From: Acidobacteriaceae bacterium
Lineage (GTDB): Bacteria > Acidobacteriota > Terriglobia > Terriglobales > Acidobacteriaceae
Reading direction: 5' to 3'
DNA: 63,816 nt
Assembly: GCA_003156805.1 (NCBI GenBank)
Contig: PMHV01000029.1
Location: 236 to 64,051 of the forward strand
The translations under genes were made by a program, and so were the position numbers. The stretch's first letter is position 1; each line of letters starts with the position of its first letter. A model generated the notes under the pieces. That model was not told where the DNA came from and searched no databases. It saw only the letters and a list, made by a program, of their open reading frames with translations. Of this stretch, positions 37,075 through 48,166 are shown piece after piece.

Positions 37075-38211
37075 ATGCAAACATCGATCGAGGAAATTCT
37101 CGCAACTTACAACGACCGGGCACCTCTAGCCGAGGCTTCGACCATCCCGGCGCCGTGGTACGTCGATTCCCGCATCGCCGAACTCGAGCGCTTCAACGTA
37201 TTCGGCAAAACGTGGCAACTCGTGGCCAGAACCGATCAATTGGAGAAGGCGGGAGAGTTTGTAACCACCACCGTTGCCGGCGAGCCGATCGTGGTGGTTC
37301 GCGGCAATGACCATGTTCTGCGCGCGTTCTACAATGTTTGCCGCCATCACGCAGCCGCAGTCATGACCCGGCCTTGCGGCCAGGCGTCTCTGCTGCGGTG
37401 TCCGTACCACGGCTGGAACTACGGCCTCGATGGATCTCTAAAAGGTATGCCCGAGTTTGACGGCGTGCAGAATTTCGACCGCGCGCAAAACGGCTTGGTA
37501 CCGGTCCGCGTTGAGACCTGGGAGTGCTTCGTCTTCGTGAACCTCGACGACAACGCCGCGCCGCTGCCGGAGTTTCTCGGCGGTCTGGTCAAGCGAATCG
37601 CGCCTCTCGGTATCGGCAAACTGCACTACTTCGACCGCCGCGTCTTCAACATTCGTTGCAACTGGAAAGTCTTCGTCGACAACTATCTTGACGGCGGCTA
37701 TCACGTGCCTCATCTGCACAAGGGCCTCAACTCCGTCCTCGATTACAAGCAATACACTATCGAAAACGAAGATCGTTATTGCCTGCAGTCCAGCCCGATG
37801 GTTGTCTCCGACGAGGATGCCGCTACCGGAGCCACGCGCAAGGGCGACCGGGCCTGGTATTTCTGGCAGTATCCCAACCTGATGATCAACTGCTACGAAG
37901 GGTACATGGACACGAATTTCGTGACCCCCGTGGACGCCGACCATTGCACCGTGATCTTCGACTTTTATTTCGGCAATGTGGGCGAAGCTCGGCGCGAATA
38001 CAACGAGCAGTCGGTGGACGTTGGCAATCGGGTTCAGGAAGAAGATCTCGGCATCTGCGAAGATGTGCAGCGCGGCTTGAAGTCGCGCGCCTATGGAGCC
38101 GGCCGGCTTTCCGTTCGCCGCGAAGCGGGCGAACAATTGTTTCATCGTCTCCTCGCCGCCGATCTCAGGCGTGGCTTGGCGCTTTCATCCGCGGCCGCCG
38201 AAAATTATTGA
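37075..38211 (+). CDS. Rieske non-haem iron oxygenase alpha subunit, choline-monooxygenase-like
   Basis: The 378-residue protein has a [2Fe-2S] Rieske domain with Cys89-x-His91 (CRHHAA) and Cys109-x2-His112 (CPYHGWNYG), and a catalytic domain with DNYLDGGYHVPHLHKGL, in which His-x4-His and Asp supply the mononuclear iron. This motif is close to that of plant choline monooxygenase. Family members hydroxylate substrates with O2 and reducing power from a separate reductase, not found here. The last codons overlap the convergent hydrolase gene by 7 nt. The C-terminus is slightly extended relative to relatives but shows no frameshift. Confidence 0.87.
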   Translation: MQTSIEEILATYNDRAPLAEASTIPAPWYVDSRIAELERFNVFGKTWQLVARTDQLEKAGEFVTTTVAGEPIVVVRGNDHVLRAFYNVCRHHAAAVMTRPCGQASLLRCPYHGWNYGLDGSLKGMPEFDGVQNFDRAQNGLVPVRVETWECFVFVNLDDNAAPLPEFLGGLVKRIAPLGIGKLHYFDRRVFNIRCNWKVFVDNYLDGGYHVPHLHKGLNSVLDYKQYTIENEDRYCLQSSPMVVSDEDAATGATRKGDRAWYFWQYPNLMINCYEGYMDTNFVTPVDADHCTVIFDFYFGNVGEARREYNEQSVDVGNRVQEEDLGICEDVQRGLKSRAYGAGRLSVRREAGEQLFHRLLAADLRRGLALSSAAAENY

Positions 38212-40262
38212 TGATCTCGTGGAATCGTTTCCTGCCACGTCTTCGATTTGACTACCGTTCCATCTTTCAGCAGTTCGCGGGTGTATTTGTAATAAAAGTT
38301 CCGCTGGTCGGTGGTCACCAGCAGGTGGCCGCGCCAGACTAACGTGCGGCCTTTCAGCTCAAAGATGCTCTTTGCCTCACCCCTTACCGAACTCGTCTCG
38401 GGATGCGCATCATCGGCATCGTAAGTCAGATTCTCGTAGTCGGTTTCCTTGCCCCACGGAAACTCGTATCCATCTTTTCCTTTCCAGTGCACGGTAGTCT
38501 TCTGGTGAGCTTCATCGCGTTCCAGCGTCCATTCGCCGGGCCAGGGAAAGCCTTCGCTCTTGAGGTCGGTTCGTTCCTCGGAAGGTTGCGGCGGCGAAAA
38601 AGAGGGCGGCGCGGCGCCGTGCAAGGGCACGACTGGCAGCACGATCCGCGAGCCGTGATTTCCGCCGAGTTCCAGTGATGTGGTCATCGCGTAAGGAGTA
38701 GGCAAGATCATCGGCCACAGCGCGTTCGAGATTGCCACGCGAATGCGATGACCCCTGGGAAAAACCCACGAGGTCAAGTGCATCTCGATATTCAGCGGAT
38801 AGACTTTGCCGGGCTCCAGATCTTGCGGCTTGCTCATCGACTCGCGCTGCGCGCCGTTGATCCCCGCGCCAGTAATCTGCGTGACTGTACCGTCAGGAGC
38901 TACGTCGGAGAGGCGCGCGAACCAGTCTGCCAGCGGTGCAGTGGCAGAAGCCCGGAGCAGCGCATGCGGCCTGCCTAAGATTGCCAGGTCTTCTGTCAGT
39001 GGAGCGGAGTCATATACCAGGCTGAACGCATCCACCGGCCGCGGATCGCTTAACAGCTCTCCCCACCAGAAGCCTGCCTCGACGCCGATCGATGGAATGT
39101 ATTTTAGTTGGTGCGCATCCGGCCGAGCCGGAGTTTCCGCCAGGGCATGATCCGGCTGGAGAAATAGCGCTGCGGGCCGCACGTCCTTCGGAGGCCACGC
39201 ATCCTCACGCCGCCATTCGCCCGGAACATGTTCCAGGTTCGGGTCCGGAGGATGCCAGTGCTGCATATAAATCACCAGCCGCGGATCGTGCTCCACGCCT
39301 GTGTCGCGTCCCTTCAGCCAATGATCGAACCATCGGACTGCCTCATCGCGCCACTCGATCTGCGGCCCGGGCACGGCTTCATTCGGAAATGTGTGGTTCC
39401 ACGGACCAACGATTGCCTTTACCTGCCCGCCCGCCTGCATCAGCATGTCGGTCACGTTGTCGCGATAGCCGTCAAGCAATCCGCCGATTAGAAAACTCGG
39501 AATCGTAATTTCCTTCAGCGGACGCACCGGCTCGCGCCAGAACGGGCCATTGTGCTGATGCTTCAAGTACAGCAACGACCAGGGCGGCGAATCGAATCGC
39601 GGACCCAGAACTTTTTCGTCAAGGGTGTAATCAGGCGCGCCGGTCCAGCCTTCGGCCATATCCATATTTAACTCAAATTCGTCGATGTGGACCATGCCGT
39701 CCATGTAGTGAACATCATCGTGAAAGAGTTCTGCTGTCGCATCCACCGCGAGTATTGCCTTCAATTCCGGCGGATGGCGCATCGCCATCTGCAGCGAATT
39801 GAATCCGCCCCACGAAATTCCGAACATTCCCACATTTCCGTTCGACCACGGTTGATGCGCCAGCCACGCGATGATCTGTTCGCCGTCGGCCTGTTCTTGT
39901 TCGGAATATTCCCGCTCCGGCGGCACGCCTTCGCTGGCGCCGAATCCGCGGATATCCACGCGCACGCTCACGTAACCACGCCGCGCGAAGTAGGCGTGCT
40001 TCGGATAATCTCCGGCGGCGGTGCCGTCGTCTTTGCGATATGGCAAATATTCCAGCAGGGCAGGAAACTTTTCACCCGGGTTCGCGCCATCGGGCATGTA
40101 GAGCGTTGCCGCCAGCCGCACGCCATCTCTCAGCGGAATCCATGCCTGCTCCATGCGCACGCCGTAAGCTGGCGCAGAAGCGGGCTCAGTGGCAAGCGTA
40201 AACGTGGCGAGGGAACTGAACAGCAAAATGCAGCCCATCCGACGAACGGCTGTTCTGATCAA
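38205..40262 (-). CDS. Secreted CocE/NonD-family hydrolase (S15 X-Pro dipeptidyl-peptidase-like)
   Basis: The 685-residue protein has a signal peptide (CILLFSSLATFTLATEP), an alpha/beta-hydrolase catalytic part (LPYRKDDG, VDIRGFGASEG, nucleophile elbow FGISWGGF with the Ser, and GPWNHTFP) and a C-terminal jelly-roll domain typical of CocE. Relatives cleave esters or X-Pro peptides. The start used is a TTG with GGGGAG upstream; an ATG eight codons later (MGCILLF) is an alternative. It is 40 nt downstream of the sigma-54 activator on the same strand, so may be in its operon. Confidence 0.87.
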   Translation of the reverse strand: MIRTAVRRMGCILLFSSLATFTLATEPASAPAYGVRMEQAWIPLRDGVRLAATLYMPDGANPGEKFPALLEYLPYRKDDGTAAGDYPKHAYFARRGYVSVRVDIRGFGASEGVPPEREYSEQEQADGEQIIAWLAHQPWSNGNVGMFGISWGGFNSLQMAMRHPPELKAILAVDATAELFHDDVHYMDGMVHIDEFELNMDMAEGWTGAPDYTLDEKVLGPRFDSPPWSLLYLKHQHNGPFWREPVRPLKEITIPSFLIGGLLDGYRDNVTDMLMQAGGQVKAIVGPWNHTFPNEAVPGPQIEWRDEAVRWFDHWLKGRDTGVEHDPRLVIYMQHWHPPDPNLEHVPGEWRREDAWPPKDVRPAALFLQPDHALAETPARPDAHQLKYIPSIGVEAGFWWGELLSDPRPVDAFSLVYDSAPLTEDLAILGRPHALLRASATAPLADWFARLSDVAPDGTVTQITGAGINGAQRESMSKPQDLEPGKVYPLNIEMHLTSWVFPRGHRIRVAISNALWPMILPTPYAMTTSLELGGNHGSRIVLPVVPLHGAAPPSFSPPQPSEERTDLKSEGFPWPGEWTLERDEAHQKTTVHWKGKDGYEFPWGKETDYENLTYDADDAHPETSSVRGEAKSIFELKGRTLVWRGHLLVTTDQRNFYYKYTRELLKDGTVVKSKTWQETIPRDHQ

Positions 40263-40302: not shown

Positions 40303-41781
40303 TCACTCCTGCGCTGATTCCTGCTCTCGCCGCATTGCGCGCAAGTCGATTCCCAACTGCTCGGCTTTCTTATACAGGTGGCTGCGCTCCAGCCCCAGCG
40401 ACTTCGCCGCCAGACTCACGTTGGAATGACTGCGCTTCAACTCGGCCAGAATGACCTCGCGCTCAAACGCGTCCACTCGTGTTGCCAGCGGTCCAGAGGC
40501 AAACGCAGAGGACTGAACCGTCTGGCCCGCTGCGTCCTTTGGCAGAGCCATTTGCACGGTGGCTAGATCCACGCGACCGTCCGTGGCCAGCAGCATGAGC
40601 CGCTCCACCATATTGCGCAGTTCGCGCACATTGCCCGGCCATGTGTACGCCTGCAGCGGCGCCATCGCGTCCCTGGTGAAAGGAAGCGGTTTCCAGCCAT
40701 TCTGCGCGCTGACTTGCGCTACGAAATGTTCAACCAGGCGTGGGATATCCTCGCGCCGCTCCCGCAGCGGAGGAAGCACGAGCGGGAAAACATAAATTCT
40801 GTGAAATAAATCCTGGCGGAACTTCTCCTCGCGCACACGAGCTTCTAGATCACGATGCGTCGCGACCAGAACTCTCACATTCACGGTTACGGGTTTATCG
40901 CCGCCAATGCGCTCGACTTCGCCTTCTTCCAAAACCCTGAGCAACTTGGCTTGCATCGCCAGGGGCATGTCTCCAATTTCGTCCAGAAAAATCGTGCCTC
41001 CATCCGCTTGCTCAAACTTGCCCACATGTCGTCCCGCGGCTCCGGTGAACGAACCCTTTTCGTGCCCGAACAATTCGGACTCAATCAACTCCGCCGGCAC
41101 CGCCGCGCAATTCAACGTAATAAACGGACCACCCGCGCGTGGGCTGCGTTCATGAATTGTCCGGGCCACCAGTTCTTTACCCGTTCCCGTCTCACCCAGA
41201 ATGCAAATGCGAGTTTCGCTGGCGGCCACACGCTCCAACTGCGCCATTGCCCGCCGCATGGCCTCGCCCGTCCATACAATTTCATGCTTGCCGATCCGTT
41301 GCCGCAGTTGCCGGTTTTCGCTCTCCAAGCGCTGCAGTTTCAGCACATTTTCCACGGTGAGCAACAACTTCTCGGTGGAGATCGGCTTCTCCAGAAAATC
41401 CAGCGCGCCCAGCCGCGTGGCACGCACCGCCATTTCGATGTGAGCCTGCCCCGACATCAGTACCACCGCCGCCGTCACAGCTTGCGATTTCAATTCCTCG
41501 AGAAGCGTCAGTCCATCTTTGCCCGGCATCACTACGTCAGAGAGAATCAAGTCAAAACGCTGAGCCTTCGCCAATTCCAGAGCCTTCGCGGCGTTGTCGC
41601 AGACCGTCGCCTCATGCCCGGCCAGCCGAAACGCGCGCGACAATGAGGCCAGCGTATTGGCCTCGTCGTCCACAATCAGCAGATGTGCTTTCGCCGGCAA
41701 CCGTCGTCCTCGCTTCGCGGTGATGTCTTCGTAGGTCTGGTGTTGTTCACGCTGTTTGCGCGCTCGTGTCCCGCGCCGCAT
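40303..41781 (-). CDS. Sigma-54-dependent NtrC-family response regulator
   Basis: The 492-residue regulator has a receiver domain (LLIVDDEANT; phospho-Asp82 in SDVVMPG), an AAA+ sigma-54 activation domain (Walker A GETGTGKELVA, L1 loop GSFTGA, which has Ser in place of the usual Ala, Walker B DGGTIFLDEIGDM, and R-fingers) and a C-terminal Fis-type DNA-binding domain (SLAAKSLGLERSHLYKKAEQ). The start was placed at the ATG overlapping the end of the kinase gene by 35 nt. It would drive sigma-54 promoters when phosphorylated by the NtrY-like kinase. Confidence 0.92.
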   Translation of the reverse strand: MRRGTRARKQREQHQTYEDITAKRGRRLPAKAHLLIVDDEANTLASLSRAFRLAGHEATVCDNAAKALELAKAQRFDLILSDVVMPGKDGLTLLEELKSQAVTAAVVLMSGQAHIEMAVRATRLGALDFLEKPISTEKLLLTVENVLKLQRLESENRQLRQRIGKHEIVWTGEAMRRAMAQLERVAASETRICILGETGTGKELVARTIHERSPRAGGPFITLNCAAVPAELIESELFGHEKGSFTGAAGRHVGKFEQADGGTIFLDEIGDMPLAMQAKLLRVLEEGEVERIGGDKPVTVNVRVLVATHRDLEARVREEKFRQDLFHRIYVFPLVLPPLRERREDIPRLVEHFVAQVSAQNGWKPLPFTRDAMAPLQAYTWPGNVRELRNMVERLMLLATDGRVDLATVQMALPKDAAGQTVQSSAFASGPLATRVDAFEREVILAELKRSHSNVSLAAKSLGLERSHLYKKAEQLGIDLRAMRREQESAQE

Positions 41782-43585
41782 CTGAATTCCGCGGCAACTC
41801 AATGACGAATGTCGTTCCCCGTCCGGGCTGGCTGCTTACGCCGATTCTTCCCTTGTGATCGCTGACCACCGACTGGGCGATGGCCAGCCCCAGTCCGGTC
41901 CCGTGCTGTTTGCTGGTGTAATAAGGAGTGAATATCCGCTCACATTCTTCCGGCGTCAAGCCCTGCCCAGTATCCGCGACCTCGATCACCACCTTGGCGT
42001 CAGCACCGCGCGTGCGCAAGGTCAGCGTCCCACCTTGTGGCATCGCATCCATCGCATTCAGCACGAGATTCGAGATCGCGCGATGCAACAATTCCGCATC
42101 GGCCGCAATCGGTTCCAGATTCGGATCCAGTTCTATCGCGCAGCGAATCGGCGAGTGTTCCTTCGATTCGAGCTGCGCTCGAAAGAGCTGCGCAATTCCC
42201 GTCATGACCGCATTGACTTGCACCGGTTGCAATTGCGGCTGCGGCATTCTGGAGAATTCGCTGAATCGGCCAACAATCGCCTTCAAGTTCGCGACCTCAG
42301 CCAGCAGGGTTTGCGAGCTCTCGCGGAAAACTTCGTCGAACTGCTCCGCACCCTGTTGCCGCGCCCGCAACAGATTTTCCACCGTAAGCTGAAGCGGGAA
42401 CAGCGGATTCTTCAGTTCGTGCGCCAGCCGCCGCGCCAGTTCGCGCCACGCGGCCACTCGCTCGGCCTGCACCAGACGTTCTTTCTGATTCAGCAATTCT
42501 TCGGTCATGCGATTGAACGACTCCGCAAGTTGCGCGAGTTCGTCGCTCCCTTGCACGTCCACACGCGCGTTCCAATGCCCTGCCGCGACCTTTCCGGCAG
42601 CGTGCGCCAGTTGTTCCACCGGCCGAGTGACGCGTGCCGCCGCCCAACTGCTCAGCAGGATCGCCAGCACGACTCCACCACCTCCGACTAAGAGCGCCAC
42701 TGAACGGATATGCCGCTTCAACTCGACATACGTCCGCCGCGAATTGCCGATCAGCAGAATCCCCAGCAGCGGACCCTCCTGCCCAGCGCTGGGTCCCTTC
42801 AGCGGAATCGCGTGGAACTCTTCATCATCGGCTTGATCCGCAGACCAGTGTACGACGGCCGTCATTTCGCGGTTATACTGCCGCACCGAGTCGATCAGAG
42901 GTTCCAGCTTTTCTGCCGGATGCGTGTGCTCCGGGGAAGTAGCCGAAGGATCGACCAGCAACTCTGGCGCAAAACGATCACCGCGATTCTGATACAGCAA
43001 GGCGCGCGTCCCAGCCGGCCAGTCCAGTCGGGAGAGAAAATTCTTATCCAGACGCTGACCGCCGATCACGGAGATTGGATGTTCGCCTACACGCGTGGTG
43101 CGGACTGCGAATAATCCCAACGCCGTGCCATCCTGCAACTCCTCCTGCTTCAGGAATGCCGGCTGCGATGGCGGCGACAAAAAAGCGGAGAACGCGTCCA
43201 TCGGATAACCGAACTTCGCCGGCCACTGCGCCGAAGAAATAATCTTGCCCTGGCTATCCACCAACTCCAGAAAATCGAGCTGATTATTCTCTGCCAGGGA
43301 TTTCGCCAAGTCAAAATAGGAGCTCGAATCGGCTGGGGTGTGACTCAGCGCGAGGGCCATGCGGGTTACGGCTTCCGACGCCGAGATGGCTTCTACTCGC
43401 CGCACAACGTCATCGCCCTGGCGGGTAAACTCGCGCCCGAACTGCGTGACCAGCGCGGACGTTCTCTCGTCCTCGGAATGCTCAAATGCACGCCGCGTTA
43501 CCGCCGATACCAGCCACGCCACTGCCGCTACAGACACGAAAACCGTCAGCGAAAACACGGCCAGCAGCTTGCGGCGAAACTTCAT
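41747..43585 (-). CDS. NtrY/NtrB-like sensor histidine kinase
   Basis: The 612-residue membrane kinase has helix 1 near residues 8-29, an extracytoplasmic sensor domain to about 290, helix 2 near 296-318, then HAMP, HisKA with His389 in ARRLAHELKNPLFP (NtrB-type) and HATPase_c (NLVLNAMDAMP, ADTGQGLTPEE, GTGLGLAIAQ). It pairs with the sigma-54 regulator downstream. Its ATG overlaps the stop of the solute-binding-protein gene (ATGA), so the protein is translationally coupled to it; the sensor domain may respond to the binding protein or its ligand. Confidence 0.92.
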   Translation of the reverse strand: MKFRRKLLAVFSLTVFVSVAAVAWLVSAVTRRAFEHSEDERTSALVTQFGREFTRQGDDVVRRVEAISASEAVTRMALALSHTPADSSSYFDLAKSLAENNQLDFLELVDSQGKIISSAQWPAKFGYPMDAFSAFLSPPSQPAFLKQEELQDGTALGLFAVRTTRVGEHPISVIGGQRLDKNFLSRLDWPAGTRALLYQNRGDRFAPELLVDPSATSPEHTHPAEKLEPLIDSVRQYNREMTAVVHWSADQADDEEFHAIPLKGPSAGQEGPLLGILLIGNSRRTYVELKRHIRSVALLVGGGGVVLAILLSSWAAARVTRPVEQLAHAAGKVAAGHWNARVDVQGSDELAQLAESFNRMTEELLNQKERLVQAERVAAWRELARRLAHELKNPLFPLQLTVENLLRARQQGAEQFDEVFRESSQTLLAEVANLKAIVGRFSEFSRMPQPQLQPVQVNAVMTGIAQLFRAQLESKEHSPIRCAIELDPNLEPIAADAELLHRAISNLVLNAMDAMPQGGTLTLRTRGADAKVVIEVADTGQGLTPEECERIFTPYYTSKQHGTGLGLAIAQSVVSDHKGRIGVSSQPGRGTTFVIELPRNSDAARDTSAQTA

Positions 43586-44952
43586 GGTTTCTCGGTTCCC
43601 AGCCACGCGTCGGCAAGATGCCAGCTTGCATCCGCGCCCGGCGCCCAGTCCTTTACTGCGGGCGATACCGCATAGCTCGCGGGAAGATGAAACAGGGGAA
43701 TCATCCGCCGCGAGGCCAGAATCGTCTGCTCGGCGTGGTATAGATCTTCCACAGAAGTTCCGTTAATTTTTGGCATCGCCACGCCTGCAACCGCCGCCAC
43801 GCCGCCGAGTGCGATCCACGGATCAGTCGATGCCAGCGGAATGCGCACCATCTGCAGAACGGCCGCAGCCGATTTCGTGGGCAGCAGGTTCAATCCCGCA
43901 TCCTTCGCGTTCAGCGCAATGCGCTCCGCGAGCAAACCTTCGATCGAATCGTTGCTATCGTAGCCGATTGTCCAATTGGGAACGATCTTAGCCAGTTCGC
44001 GTTGGTGCCGCGCACGTGGCAAATCGGCTTCCGCCGGAAACACAAATGCGTAGCCGCTCATCCAGTTAGGCAGGATACCAGCCGTTGGCTGCCCCGCACC
44101 TTGCAGCAGAACGCTGCGTATCGAAGCTCGTTCCACACCCAGCGCCAAGGCCTCGCGCAGCAACTTTTCTTCGGGCGATTGCGCTTCGCGCATAAAAGTC
44201 AGCGCTACGAGTTCCACGGGTTGTGAACTCTCAACGTCACGTCCCTCCATCGCCACGCGGTGGGCCTGCTCGGATGCAACCTCCACCAGATCCGCCTTGC
44301 CCAACTCCAGCGCGATCAGCTGATCGTGAAAGTTCTTCCCCATTTCAATTTCCACCGCATCCACAAACGCCCGGCCACGCCAGTAATTTTCCTCGGCCCG
44401 CAAAGTCAGTTTTTTGCCGGTCTGCCAATCCTCAATATGGAACGGTCCGGTTCCGCTGAGCTTGCCCGCATTCCTCTTCACGATGGCGTTGCGCCACAGG
44501 CCAAGCTCTGCGGGAACATCGCCATCAGGCGCGTCGCGCTCAATCACCACCGAGTCTCCGTCGGCGAGCACATTCCACGAGGGATTTGACGCGCGCAGGG
44601 AAGCGGCCGCGATCTCCGCCGTCAGCGCAGATCCGTCGTGAAATCTGATTCCAGGCCGCAGGCGGAACTGCCAGCGCTGGTTCCCGGGCGCCGCCTGCCA
44701 TGAAATCGCCAGCGCTGGACGTGTTCTTCCGCCGTCATCTAACGTCACCAGAGTTTCGAAAATCAGCGCCATCACATTGCGCCGTGCGAATGAATCTGCT
44801 TGTGCCGTATCCGCAGGATCGAGCGATCCTGGCGCTTCCCGTATCGCTACGTGCGCCGTGCCGCCATAAAGCGGACGCGTCGCCGCTCCCGCCAGACTCG
44901 CCGTCAATAACAGGCTACTGACCGCAAGCCATTGCCAGCCGAAACGCTTCAT
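43582..44952 (-). CDS. Periplasmic solute-binding protein (SBP_bac_5, peptide/nickel type)
   Basis: The 456-residue protein has a signal peptide (QWLAVSSLLLTASLAGAATRPL) and the family 5 pattern: GGTAHVAIREAPGSLDPAD, ALIFETLVTLDDGG, WQFRLRPGIRFHDGSALTA, SGTGPFHIEDWQTGKKLTLRA. Family members feed oligopeptide/nickel ABC importers, but no permease or ATPase gene is near. It is sandwiched between a secreted protein and a sensor kinase with overlaps of 38 and 4 nt, suggesting a signalling rather than import role. Confidence 0.87.
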   Translation of the reverse strand: MKRFGWQWLAVSSLLLTASLAGAATRPLYGGTAHVAIREAPGSLDPADTAQADSFARRNVMALIFETLVTLDDGGRTRPALAISWQAAPGNQRWQFRLRPGIRFHDGSALTAEIAAASLRASNPSWNVLADGDSVVIERDAPDGDVPAELGLWRNAIVKRNAGKLSGTGPFHIEDWQTGKKLTLRAEENYWRGRAFVDAVEIEMGKNFHDQLIALELGKADLVEVASEQAHRVAMEGRDVESSQPVELVALTFMREAQSPEEKLLREALALGVERASIRSVLLQGAGQPTAGILPNWMSGYAFVFPAEADLPRARHQRELAKIVPNWTIGYDSNDSIEGLLAERIALNAKDAGLNLLPTKSAAAVLQMVRIPLASTDPWIALGGVAAVAGVAMPKINGTSVEDLYHAEQTILASRRMIPLFHLPASYAVSPAVKDWAPGADASWHLADAWLGTEKP

Positions 44953-46198
44953 AATCGCCCATCTTTCGATTTCGCGTGACCACAATCGCGGTATCGCCTT
45001 TGCCTTCCGTCCACAGCGCGGTAATCTCGCCGGGAAAATCCAACGCTGCGCTCACCGGAACCGGATCGCGATCGGGAAACTCATAGGCTCGCATCGAATC
45101 TGCGTCATTGCTGCCGGCACCTGCCGCCAGCAGCTGCCAGCCCGACGAGCACAATGTTTTCACGCTGGCGATGTCGCTGCCCCATCCCAGCTTCGCTGCC
45201 TGATCGCTTACGCCATCGACGAAGTGAGTCTGACCATCGGTTCCGGCAAACAGCCACAGCACGTACTTTTCCCGGGGCAGTGGCGCTGCCGAATAAAACT
45301 TTCCCAGAGTCGTTAGTTTTCCAACGCCGGGCGCCAGCGCTCCGGTAAAGAAATTTCTCGTTGCCGCATAGAACGCGGCCAGTTGCGGCGCCGACGCTGG
45401 CGGCGCTCCGACGGCGGGAAAGCTCACCGGATTCGTTGCCACCAGCGGCCACGGGTCGTCGCTGTCGCGGCAACTCAAACTCAACGGCATCGCCGTCGTG
45501 CTGCGGCAGAACACGCCCGGCAGATAAACATCCAGCAAATGATCTTTCGCCGCGATCAGCCGCCCGCGCATGTCGCGCGACCACGGCCGCACATGTGCAA
45601 TCGCGAGAACCTGTTCTTGTTGCCACTTCGCGTTCTGCATCCGGTAGAGGGCAACTTTTTCCGGATCAAGCACTGCCATGTAAGTAGGTGCGGCGCTTTC
45701 TTGCAGTACGGCAACATCCAGGATGCGGTCTTCCTGCGCCCACAGCGGAGTCTTGCGTATCGTAACCGGCATCGCTTCGTGCGCAAACGCAACTCCCTCC
45801 GCCCGCGCAACGGAGACCATCACCACAGCCGCTTCACCCGCTCCTTGACGAATCTCAGCAATCCACAAGTAGAACTGCGCATTCTCCGAGAGCGACACCG
45901 CCACGAACGCCGCTGCCTGCTCAGGATTCACCAATCGCAATCCAGCCGCCTCCAGATCGGCGCGCAGCGCGCCGGATGCCGCGTCGGTATCCTTCTTGGA
46001 TAAAGAAGAGCGGTTCTCCACCGTCAGCGCCGCGGCTCCCGGTCCTGTCACCGCGGCAATCTTTCGCGCCAGTTGTTGTGCAGGCTCATCCCAGTCGCTG
46101 ACACCCGCGACTGCCAAGCGGAAGGGAATGAAACAGAAAACCAAGGCCGCTAGTAGAAGCGACAAGCGCGGTGCGCAGCTGGGAGTGTGATCGAACAT
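44915..46198 (-). CDS. Exported protein of unknown function, first gene of the kinase/SBP operon
   Basis: The 427-residue protein has a signal peptide (APRLSLLLAALVFCFIPFRLAVAG) and no family I recognise. After it comes a region with ALTVENRSSLSKKD (beta-alpha pattern as in CsgG/LpoB-like domains, uncertain), then blocks with WIAEIRQGAGEAAVVMVSV, AVLDPEKVALYRM and several WD-like strands (YVLWLFAGTDGQTHFVDGV), giving a propeller-like texture. The start is the ATG of MFDHTPS; an earlier frame extension has no support. It overlaps the next gene by 38 nt. Confidence 0.7.
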   Translation of the reverse strand: MFDHTPSCAPRLSLLLAALVFCFIPFRLAVAGVSDWDEPAQQLARKIAAVTGPGAAALTVENRSSLSKKDTDAASGALRADLEAAGLRLVNPEQAAAFVAVSLSENAQFYLWIAEIRQGAGEAAVVMVSVARAEGVAFAHEAMPVTIRKTPLWAQEDRILDVAVLQESAAPTYMAVLDPEKVALYRMQNAKWQQEQVLAIAHVRPWSRDMRGRLIAAKDHLLDVYLPGVFCRSTTAMPLSLSCRDSDDPWPLVATNPVSFPAVGAPPASAPQLAAFYAATRNFFTGALAPGVGKLTTLGKFYSAAPLPREKYVLWLFAGTDGQTHFVDGVSDQAAKLGWGSDIASVKTLCSSGWQLLAAGAGSNDADSMRAYEFPDRDPVPVSAALDFPGEITALWTEGKGDTAIVVTRNRKMGDYEAFRLAMACGQ

Positions 46199-46384: not shown

Positions 46385-47716
46385 TTACCTCGGCTGCGGG
46401 TCCGCCTGATTGCTCTGGTTCGCCGTGTTCATGCTGCGAAGCACATCATTCGCGAAAAAGAACTTGCCGTCGGCGGGAACCATCATGATCTGCAACTTAT
46501 CCGAGAGCCGCTCGGCCACAATTTTGTTGATCAGCAGAGGATTCTGCTTCAAGACCGCCGCCTCACCCTGCATGCGTTCGGCATCCGCCGCTGCCGTCAC
46601 CCGGATGCGCTGGGCCTCGGCATCCGCCAGCAACTTGCGCCGCTCGGTCTCGGCTTTGCTGTCGATCACCTTGGCTTGCGCCTCCGCTTCCGCATTCTGA
46701 ATGGTGGCTTCCTTGCGCGCCTGCGCCTCCAGCCGGCTCTGCTCGATCTGTTTTTGCTTGAGCGGCAGCGTATATTGCATTGCGTCCGATTCGCCCTTCG
46801 CCTGCAGAACGTGGACTTGCGCCTCGCCTTCCGCTTGTTTGATCTGCTGTACCTTCGTTGCTTCGGCTTCGAGTTCGGCGATGCGCACTTGTTTGCCCTT
46901 CAGTTCCGTCTCCACACTCATGCGATCGTTTTCCTGCTCTTTCAAGAGCAAGGTTTCCAATCCTTGGGCATACTCCGGCGGCAACTGAATGTCTCTCAGC
47001 ATCACTTCCTTCACCACAATCCCATCCGCAGCCAGTTTCTGCGTGATCATCCCCGCCGCTCGCTGACGCACCTCCTCGCGCTTCGCCGAGAAAACATCGC
47101 GCATCGTATAGTTCGGCACCAGTTCCCGCCACACGCTCGCCACAGTCGGCGGAACGATTTCCTTTTCCACCGGACGCGGCAAGTTGCCCTGAATGTAATC
47201 CAGCTTCTTCGGATCCAGCCGGTACCGCACCGTGATGGCCAAGCCCAAGGCCAATCCTTCTTTCGCCTGCACATCCATGAGCTGCGTTTTCATGGTCGTA
47301 GGCGCCGACGCGGCCTTCCCGTCTTCCGATGCTCTAGTTTCTGATGCCCCAGTCGTGAAAACCTGATCGCGCGTGTCGAACAGCGCGACATCTTCCACCA
47401 GCGGCATCACCACATGCGCTCCCGGATATAGCGTCCCCGGCAGCGTTCCGCTCAACTGGCTTACTCGCACTCCTGCCATGCCGCTTGGCACCACCACAAT
47501 GCTGAAGGCCACCAAAAGCGGTCCCCATGCCAATAGAACCAGCGCCAGCGAGGTTCGCCAGCGCAGGCGCGGCGGCACTGCCGGTACTGTTCCGCCCGGC
47601 GCAGCCAGTGCCTGCCGGTACAACACTTCGCGATACAGATCGTAGGTGAGAATGCACACGGCCGCGAAGATCATTCCAAGGCCGCCCGTAATCAGCAAAT
47701 ACCTCAATGCCAGCAT
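46385..47716 (-). CDS. SPFH/Band 7 domain protein (prohibitin/flotillin-like)
   Basis: The 443-residue protein has two N-terminal membrane helices (about residues 8-26 and 55-78), then an SPFH domain (MAGVRVSQLSGTLPGTLYPG, RDQVFTTGAS, KEGLALGLAITVRYRLDP) and a long Ala/Glu/Gln-rich coiled coil (EAEAQAKVIDSKAETERRK). SPFH proteins form oligomeric rings that organise membrane microdomains and regulate proteases. It follows a 58-residue membrane protein on the same strand, and is probably co-transcribed with it from the candidate sigma-54 promoter. Confidence 0.88.
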   Translation of the reverse strand: MLALRYLLITGGLGMIFAAVCILTYDLYREVLYRQALAAPGGTVPAVPPRLRWRTSLALVLLAWGPLLVAFSIVVVPSGMAGVRVSQLSGTLPGTLYPGAHVVMPLVEDVALFDTRDQVFTTGASETRASEDGKAASAPTTMKTQLMDVQAKEGLALGLAITVRYRLDPKKLDYIQGNLPRPVEKEIVPPTVASVWRELVPNYTMRDVFSAKREEVRQRAAGMITQKLAADGIVVKEVMLRDIQLPPEYAQGLETLLLKEQENDRMSVETELKGKQVRIAELEAEATKVQQIKQAEGEAQVHVLQAKGESDAMQYTLPLKQKQIEQSRLEAQARKEATIQNAEAEAQAKVIDSKAETERRKLLADAEAQRIRVTAAADAERMQGEAAVLKQNPLLINKIVAERLSDKLQIMMVPADGKFFFANDVLRSMNTANQSNQADPQPR

Positions 47717-47750
47717 CGTCGTTCTCCTTTAGACTTCTTCAAGCTGCGCC

Positions 47751-47927
47751 TCAGCGCTTTTGCCCTGTTTTTGCCGGCACCGTCTGCCGGACATGTTGCC
47801 GAACACGCTGCCGGACGAAGAACAGCCGGAACACTTGCCCAAAAATCAGCTCCTCCGCCAGCAATGCGATTGCCAGAGAAAAGACCATCCCCGCAACAAC
47901 TGCTATGAATGTGATTGCCGTTTGCAT
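47751..47927 (-). CDS. Small membrane protein, 58 residues, upstream of the SPFH gene
   Basis: The frame runs ATG to TGA. It encodes a hydrophobic helix (TFIAVVAGMVFSLAIALLAE), then ELIFGQVFRLFF and a basic tail (VRQRVRQHVRQTVPAKTGQ). An AGGGGAA box precedes the ATG. It lies 34 nt upstream of the SPFH gene on the same strand. The helix plus amphipathic basic tail looks like a membrane-associated regulator. The family is not recognised. Confidence 0.6.
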   Translation of the reverse strand: MQTAITFIAVVAGMVFSLAIALLAEELIFGQVFRLFFVRQRVRQHVRQTVPAKTGQKR

Positions 47928-47978
47928 ACTCGTTTCCCCTTTGTTTCATCGCCGCCATGCTTTACGCAGACCTGTATT

Positions 47979-47993
47979 GCAAGATGAAAGCCA
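47979..47993 (-). promoter_or_regulatory. Candidate sigma-54 promoter
   Basis: On the minus strand the sequence reads TGGCTTTCATCTTGCAA. This matches the sigma-54 consensus TGGCAC-N5-TTGCA at the key -24 GG and -12 GC positions with correct spacing. It lies 52 nt upstream of the 58-residue protein start. A sigma-54 activator is encoded 6 kb downstream. Confidence 0.45.
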
Positions 47994-48166
47994 GACCATA
48001 TGTCCTCAGCAACAAGCGACTTAAGAGTTAGATTCCAAGGCGCACCTGTGGCGCTGAAACCACACCGTGTCGCTCCTGACACACGACTGAGACTGCAGGA
48101 AGTCAATCAGACACGCTTGCCCTCTGCCGTTGACTTCGGTCTCTTCCGCTCGTATCGTTCCGCCCT

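Follow-up and report, generated by a model that had tools for sequence, protein, structure and literature searches.

What does the gene of a solute-binding protein do in an overlapping run of genes that also encodes a sensor kinase and a sigma-54 activator, with no permease gene at its side? The question is raised by a locus of the window, by which we mean the whole stretch of 63,816 nt of Acidobacteriaceae DNA analysed here; its source genome comprises 5.03 Mb in 75 contigs and is about 95% complete. An earlier note, made from the letters of the window, had read the locus as a solute-binding protein (SBP) used as sensor partner of a two-component system, with an exported protein (EXP) as an extra component.

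The four overlapping genes and their protein families

The core of the locus consists of EXP, SBP, the sensor kinase (HK) and the response regulator (RR), all on the minus strand (Table 1). With the starts given there we reproduce the overlaps of 38, 4 and 35 nt described in the earlier note. Among relatives, whose start codons were picked by rule, 33 of 51 loci have precisely the −38 nt spacing of EXP and SBP, and the two genes overlap in 50 of 51; the phase of this overlap (44915-44952 in the window) is the same in 51/51 loci, mostly at −38, −23 or −35, and SBP and HK are spaced at −4 in 41/51. Since spacing and phase are kept across relatives, these first two overlaps can be taken to exceed chance, and the persistence of the EXP/SBP phase despite widely differing proteins suggests translational coupling. 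The 35-nt overlap of HK and RR is doubtful, because it rests on an upstream ATG of RR at which the relatives differ, conservation of RR starts near residue 22-31, and a TTG at codon 28 would, if used as start, leave a gap of 46 nt. After RR, on the same strand, lies a gene for an S15/PepX-type hydrolase (38205-40262), also found in five loci of the same genus and in none of the other fetched loci.

Table 1. Features of the locus, with positions in the window.
Feature	Position	Strand	Description
UAS 1, GTGTCAGGAGCGACAC	48067-48082	−	Proposed RR binding site, 89 nt before the −24 element; sole exact GTGT-N8-ACAC in the window
UAS 2	48048-48063	−	Imperfect GTGG-N8-CCAC, 19 nt further down; read from the sequence; tandem spacing as in relatives
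Sigma-54-type promoter, TGGCTTTCATCTTGCA	47978-47993	−	Score 16.7, best on both strands of the 63.8-kb window
Small one-helix membrane protein	47751-47927	−	58 aa; without Pfam family; similar proteins before SPFH in 37/42 relatives
SPFH/Band 7 protein	46385-47716	−	443 aa; PF01145, 98.9 bits; in 42/52 relatives, one a fragment
EXP	46198-44915	−	427 aa, exported; without known family; four Cys columns invariant in 49 rows
SBP	44952-43582	−	456 aa, family 5 solute-binding protein; PF00496 and profile matches to solved family-5 SBPs
HK	43585-41747	−	Membrane sensor kinase with large N-terminal extracytoplasmic region; invariant HELKNP box
RR	41781-40303	−	Sigma-54 activator response regulator, GSFTGA loop; start may be TTG at 41700

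Family searches bear out most of what the earlier note had said of these proteins. SBP is indeed of the peptide type: it matches SBP_bac_5 (PF00496) at 116.2 bits against a cut-off of 32.4, and solved murein-peptide-binding proteins are among its profile matches. It is short, with 456 aa against 473-610 residues in the listed solved chains matched by profile. RR has the Response_reg, Sigma54_activat and HTH_8 domains of the sigma-54 activator that had been proposed; its GSFTGA-type loop recurs in 48/49 loci and is the only motif claimed beyond the window, strict patterns for the receiver and Walker B motifs having matched just 29 and 7 of the 49. In HK the kinase core is complete (HAMP, HisKA and HATPase_c) and the large extracytoplasmic region stands, but the label NtrY-like proved loose: its matches to kinase-core models lie below their cut-offs, with AtoS best. 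EXP had been described as of unknown family. Searched singly and as a 49-row set against Pfam, NCBIfam and PDB, it gave no noteworthy match and came near no cut-off, and thus matches no known family in these searches. A TolB-like or LpoB-like layout is conceivable. Rows left out of the alignments were L056, L075 and L098 (incomplete) and L082 (no EXP) for EXP, L070 and L098 for SBP, and L055 (cut) and L098 (none) for HK.

Co-conservation of the core and paired loss of EXP and SBP

The core recurs well beyond the window, in a group of soil Acidobacteria. Of the 200 genomes examined in the order, 53 encode a close SBP orthologue (E ≤ 3.2e-46, the next genome standing at 9.4e-21), 52 of them together with the HK sensor domain and 1 without it; the sensor domain, present in 57 genomes, occurs alone in 5, and 142 genomes have neither. 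The 52 loci that were fetched, some of them cut by contig ends, hold EXP in 51, where it adjoins SBP, HK in 51, RR in 49 and SPFH in 42, while their outer flanking genes vary. One locus (L082) has SBP without EXP and a different gene in the EXP position, and another (L068) has HK without RR. In 58 new EXP loci, left after 22 of 80 had been dropped as near-copies of the first set and counted only where there was enough sequence, EXP is followed by SBP in 51/51, by HK in 48/48 and by RR in 38/39; SPFH precedes in 40/48 and an L,D-transpeptidase (LDT) in 27/43, 16/43 being without it. Hence a solute-binding protein, a membrane kinase and a sigma-54 activator with a receiver domain are encoded together, and this synteny survey in Acidobacteriota answers the objection foreseen in the earlier note, that the genes might not be co-conserved. 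All 80 EXP loci kept from titled records come from Acidobacteriota, mostly from records titled Acidobacteriaceae, Acidobacteriales or Terriglobia, and Candidatus Sulfotelmatobacter, Ca. Angelobacter, Acidipila and Terracidiphilus are among them. A sample of the phylum showed EXP in 10 of 396 genomes, five of these in families f30 and f74.

SBP could be an ordinary importer subunit, its permease encoded elsewhere, that stands beside the two-component system by chance or convenience. Its family-5 membership fits, and so does a DppB/DppC pair of this genome on contig C67 (16 kb), which carries no family-5 SBP. However, SBP is co-conserved with HK, another family-5 SBP is encoded on contig C50, and homologues of this genome's DppB and DppC, sought in the window and in 142 related loci with some kilobases on each side, were found in none. 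The absence of an import permease, remarked upon in the earlier note, therefore holds for this search; no permease genes stand beside SBP in the manner of a peptide/nickel ABC importer, and other ABC permeases appear in the outer flank of 3 of the 142 loci, two being the same genome. We consider the importer explanation, which the earlier note had named as the finding that would overturn its reading, improbable, despite the DppB/DppC pair on another contig. The other family-5 SBP (G000:C50:99112-100702, L100) lies next to genes that by eye are anmK-like and nagZ-like, and together with the DppB/DppC pair (G000:C67, L268) it may form a murein-peptide recycling importer.

EXP and SBP are also lost together. 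Both are missing from five genomes of the window's genus that retain HK and RR; the stretches fetched from them contain SPFH in 4/5 and LDT in 1/5. Of the five, only G014 combines LDT with a good promoter; the promoter of G117 is weak (3.8), and the other three have none by this pattern. Because these five genomes group together with support 100/100, as a single clade sister to the window, in a tree of HK and RR built from 14 of the 53 SBP-bearing genomes and the 5 without SBP, the loss is, as the tree has it, one event and not five. The HK sensor domain of the five is still 63-73% identical to that of the window. A sixth genome of the genus (G124) is without EXP, SBP and the HK sensor domain. 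Elsewhere, G004 (L266, G004:C52) carries an EXP-SBP pair without HK or RR in the fetched stretch and has no HK sensor domain in its genome; the SBP of this locus is longer (521 aa) and the EXP shorter (318 aa) than usual. We conclude that EXP and SBP would work as a functional pair that couples to the kinase, and that the pair is not essential to it, because the sensor domain stays conserved in the five genomes lacking both. The sensor-partner idea of the earlier note is thus upheld as regards co-conservation with the kinase, but an indispensable sensor role is not borne out.

The sigma-54-type promoter, its repeat and the genes behind it

The unit exceeds the four genes: upstream of them (46385-48082) come SPFH, a gene for a small transmembrane (TM) protein and a sigma-54-type promoter with its repeat, and the full order in relatives is promoter, LDT, small one-helix protein, SPFH, EXP, SBP, HK and RR. 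All of these upstream elements, and the LDT of relatives, had been missed by the earlier note. In 34/52 fetched loci a YkuD L,D-transpeptidase gene precedes SPFH or EXP. The two that were scanned match PF03734 at 93.6 and 99 bits (cut-off 23.4), and S[HT]xC[IF]R, which we take to be the YkuD Cys motif, is found in 33/34. At the window's locus LDT is absent and the sequence is continuous; the LDT of a relative, searched without a positive control in the genome as assembled (~95% complete), found no match. G179 has a split cassette, whose detached LDT-small TM-SPFH locus carries the same promoter.

The best sigma-54 consensus match within the 250 nt searched upstream falls 43-64 nt before the LDT start in 31/34 loci, a clustering with P = 6e-29 against random positions when shared ancestry is ignored. 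Individual sites are modest, 14/34 beating 95% of random pieces, so that the sequence evidence is one of position, many single sites being weak. In the window, scanned with a matrix that had been trained without it, promoter and repeat stand before the small TM gene, LDT being missing. Among all short dyads, GTGT-N8-ACAC ranks first in count (30/40 promoters vs 0.7 expected), often occurring twice about 20 nt apart, and a repeat placed upstream of the promoter is the layout that a sigma-54 activator would be expected to use. Exact repeat and promoter are found together in 22/27 new loci with LDT and 6/16 without, vs 61/4800 random pieces. In other families the repeat and TGG-N9-TGC precede LDT in 5/5 loci, with matrix scores ranging from 5.7 to 17.5 and reaching 9 or more in four. 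Across the order, the strict repeat-plus-promoter pattern occurs in 25/53 genomes with SBP, 1/5 with HK only and 6/142 with neither, the reversed pattern occurring in 6/200. As far as sequence can tell, a −24/−12 promoter and an upstream activator site precede the first gene, as in a sigma-54-dependent operon; like the gene order, the co-conservation and the paired loss, promoter and repeat are read directly from the sequences. The window's genome has one sigma-54 gene. A candidate promoter inside the small TM gene (47875) was rejected because it sits in the stretch coding for the hydrophobic helix, and no conserved promoter site was found directly before SPFH or EXP.

Do other genes stand behind the same motif? 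A homologous lipoprotein-like family, without Pfam match, lies behind the same repeat and promoter in three genomes, at L228, L229 and L231 (scores 10.3, 12.5 and 19.1), and is a candidate second member of the regulon. In genus g10 the motif precedes a propeller protein, identified by Pfam in L230 and by eye in L232 and L233; a VIT/VWA protein comes after it in L232 (a Pfam match) and in L233 (by eye). L235 (G110:C9) has a CreD protein (PF06123, 46.6 bits for a cut-off of 23) behind the motif; the cassette of this genome lacks an adjoining LDT or SPFH. An MBOAT-like protein, below cut-off, follows the repeat and a weak promoter in L241, whose genome (G166) has neither an SBP orthologue nor the HK sensor domain; L227 is likewise MBOAT-like by eye, with a weak promoter score. 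The common theme of these targets is the envelope, with the proviso that so short a pattern will also yield some chance hits. L240 (promoter score 19.5), before a frame reading like prolyl-tRNA synthetase, and the low-scoring matches L237, L239 and L243-L246 were set aside as likely chance. In the window's genome 15 of the 67 places with up to one mismatch were retrieved as loci and scanned, the relaxed repeat-plus-promoter pattern occurs at 2 places vs 2 in the reversed control, and the other exact GTGTC-N6-GACAC was rejected as a second regulon site, as it lies inside a frame reading by eye like a ClC chloride channel.

A model for the operon, its rivals and its known relatives

We consider it rather likely that the locus is an autoregulated sigma-54 operon of an envelope or cell-wall response. 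Phosphorylated RR would bind tandem GTGTCA-N4-TGACAC sites, the first beginning about 89 nt and the second about 69 nt ahead of the −24 element; recognition of the repeat by RR is highly probable. RR would then activate one sigma-54 promoter and with it the order LDT (where present), small TM protein, SPFH, EXP, SBP, HK and RR, the system's own kinase and regulator under that promoter forming a positive feedback loop. EXP and SBP would act as a periplasmic pair modulating the kinase, SBP not being an importer subunit; that the pair acts on the kinase seems probable to us, and we lean slightly towards a signal that concerns the cell wall. In most relatives the output LDT would re-crosslink peptidoglycan, with SPFH as a membrane scaffold. 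The window's locus keeps the remainder of the module, and a wall output is indirect here because LDT is missing. On this view the operon resembles an alarm for the envelope more than an importer of nutrients. A bolder version, in which EXP and SBP read murein peptides or like turnover products and, through the kinase and the sigma-54 activator, switch on L,D-transpeptidase cross-linking within an SPFH membrane domain, is speculative and in our estimate unlikely; its murein-peptide part would draw on the SBP family and on LDT only. The same low estimate applies to calling the system a binding-protein-gated peptidoglycan damage sensor of Acidobacteriota.

Could EXP and SBP be outputs instead? 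The kinase would then sense envelope stress directly, and the pair would be periplasmic effectors, such as a scavenger, a chaperone or a feedback inhibitor like ZraP. Both genes do share their predicted promoter with LDT and SPFH, the kinase persists in genomes without them, and ZraP is such a periplasmic protein in an autoregulated NtrC-type system, according to the parts of the source consulted (PMC8249747). On the other hand, EXP and SBP stand directly before HK with conserved overlaps, HK is present in 52/53 SBP genomes, and SBPs as inputs of kinases are known from the accounts of AioX and PgtC seen in part. We hold this explanation to be possible but on the unlikely side, and prefer the pair as input over a co-induced output. 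Hardly credible is a nitrogen system of NtrYX type whose neighbours stand there by chance: RR does score highest against the NtrX and NtrC models (426.3 and 425.9 bits), but these scores fall under the curated cut-offs (600 and 558.6), placing it in neither NtrYX nor NtrBC, and the neighbours are kept across families while the outer flanks differ.

The earlier note had not recognised the arrangement as a described system, which does not hold for its core: trios of SBP, kinase and sigma-54 regulator have been described as AioXSR and PgtCBA, as the sections of the sources that we consulted report. AioX-AioS-AioR serves arsenite sensing (PMC5908839, PMC6011840). In those sections, periplasmic binding protein, kinase and regulator share one operon and AioR acts upstream of an RpoN promoter, as here, but AioX belongs to a different SBP subfamily, its system targets aioBA, the aioXSR operon of strain NT-26 is under RpoD and RpoE2 promoters, and EXP, SPFH or LDT are not reported. 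In the phosphoglycerate response (PMC11077982, seen in part) the sensor protein PgtC acts on PgtB, a kinase that phosphorylates PgtA, and PgtA is thought to function together with sigma-54; the target there is the transporter PgtP, and RR reaches just 175.8 of the 650 bits of the PgtA model NF047793, outside that family. ZraP-ZraS-ZraR is likewise NtrC-type, governs its own expression and that of an accessory protein in the periplasm, and is linked to envelope stress in the portions consulted (PMC8249747), but ZraP is not an SBP, and HK and RR score 164.1 of 479 bits for ZraS and 348.2 of 760 for ZraR, which places them outside ZraPSR. DppA, NikA and MppA share the sequence family of SBP, which differs in being shorter and without an adjoining permease gene. 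A role of sigma-54 in controlling the bacterial exterior has been put forward (PMC3162934), and no mention of a transpeptidase was found in two sigma-54 papers checked by word. A literature search that covered subscription journals thinly, and in which the transpeptidase term matched poorly, found no description of this cassette, that is, of this family-5 SBP together with the EXP family, the SPFH, small TM and LDT cargo and a self-contained operator.

In conclusion, the known trios of SBP, kinase and sigma-54 activator concern arsenite and phosphoglycerate. The module described here has a promoter and an operator of its own, is linked to genes of cell wall and membrane and, in most relatives, includes a likely output enzyme. 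It predicts a specific operator and a candidate regulon. Periplasmic binding proteins would be linked to the control of L,D-transpeptidases, and the unnamed EXP family, seen here only in Acidobacteriota records, gains a first context.
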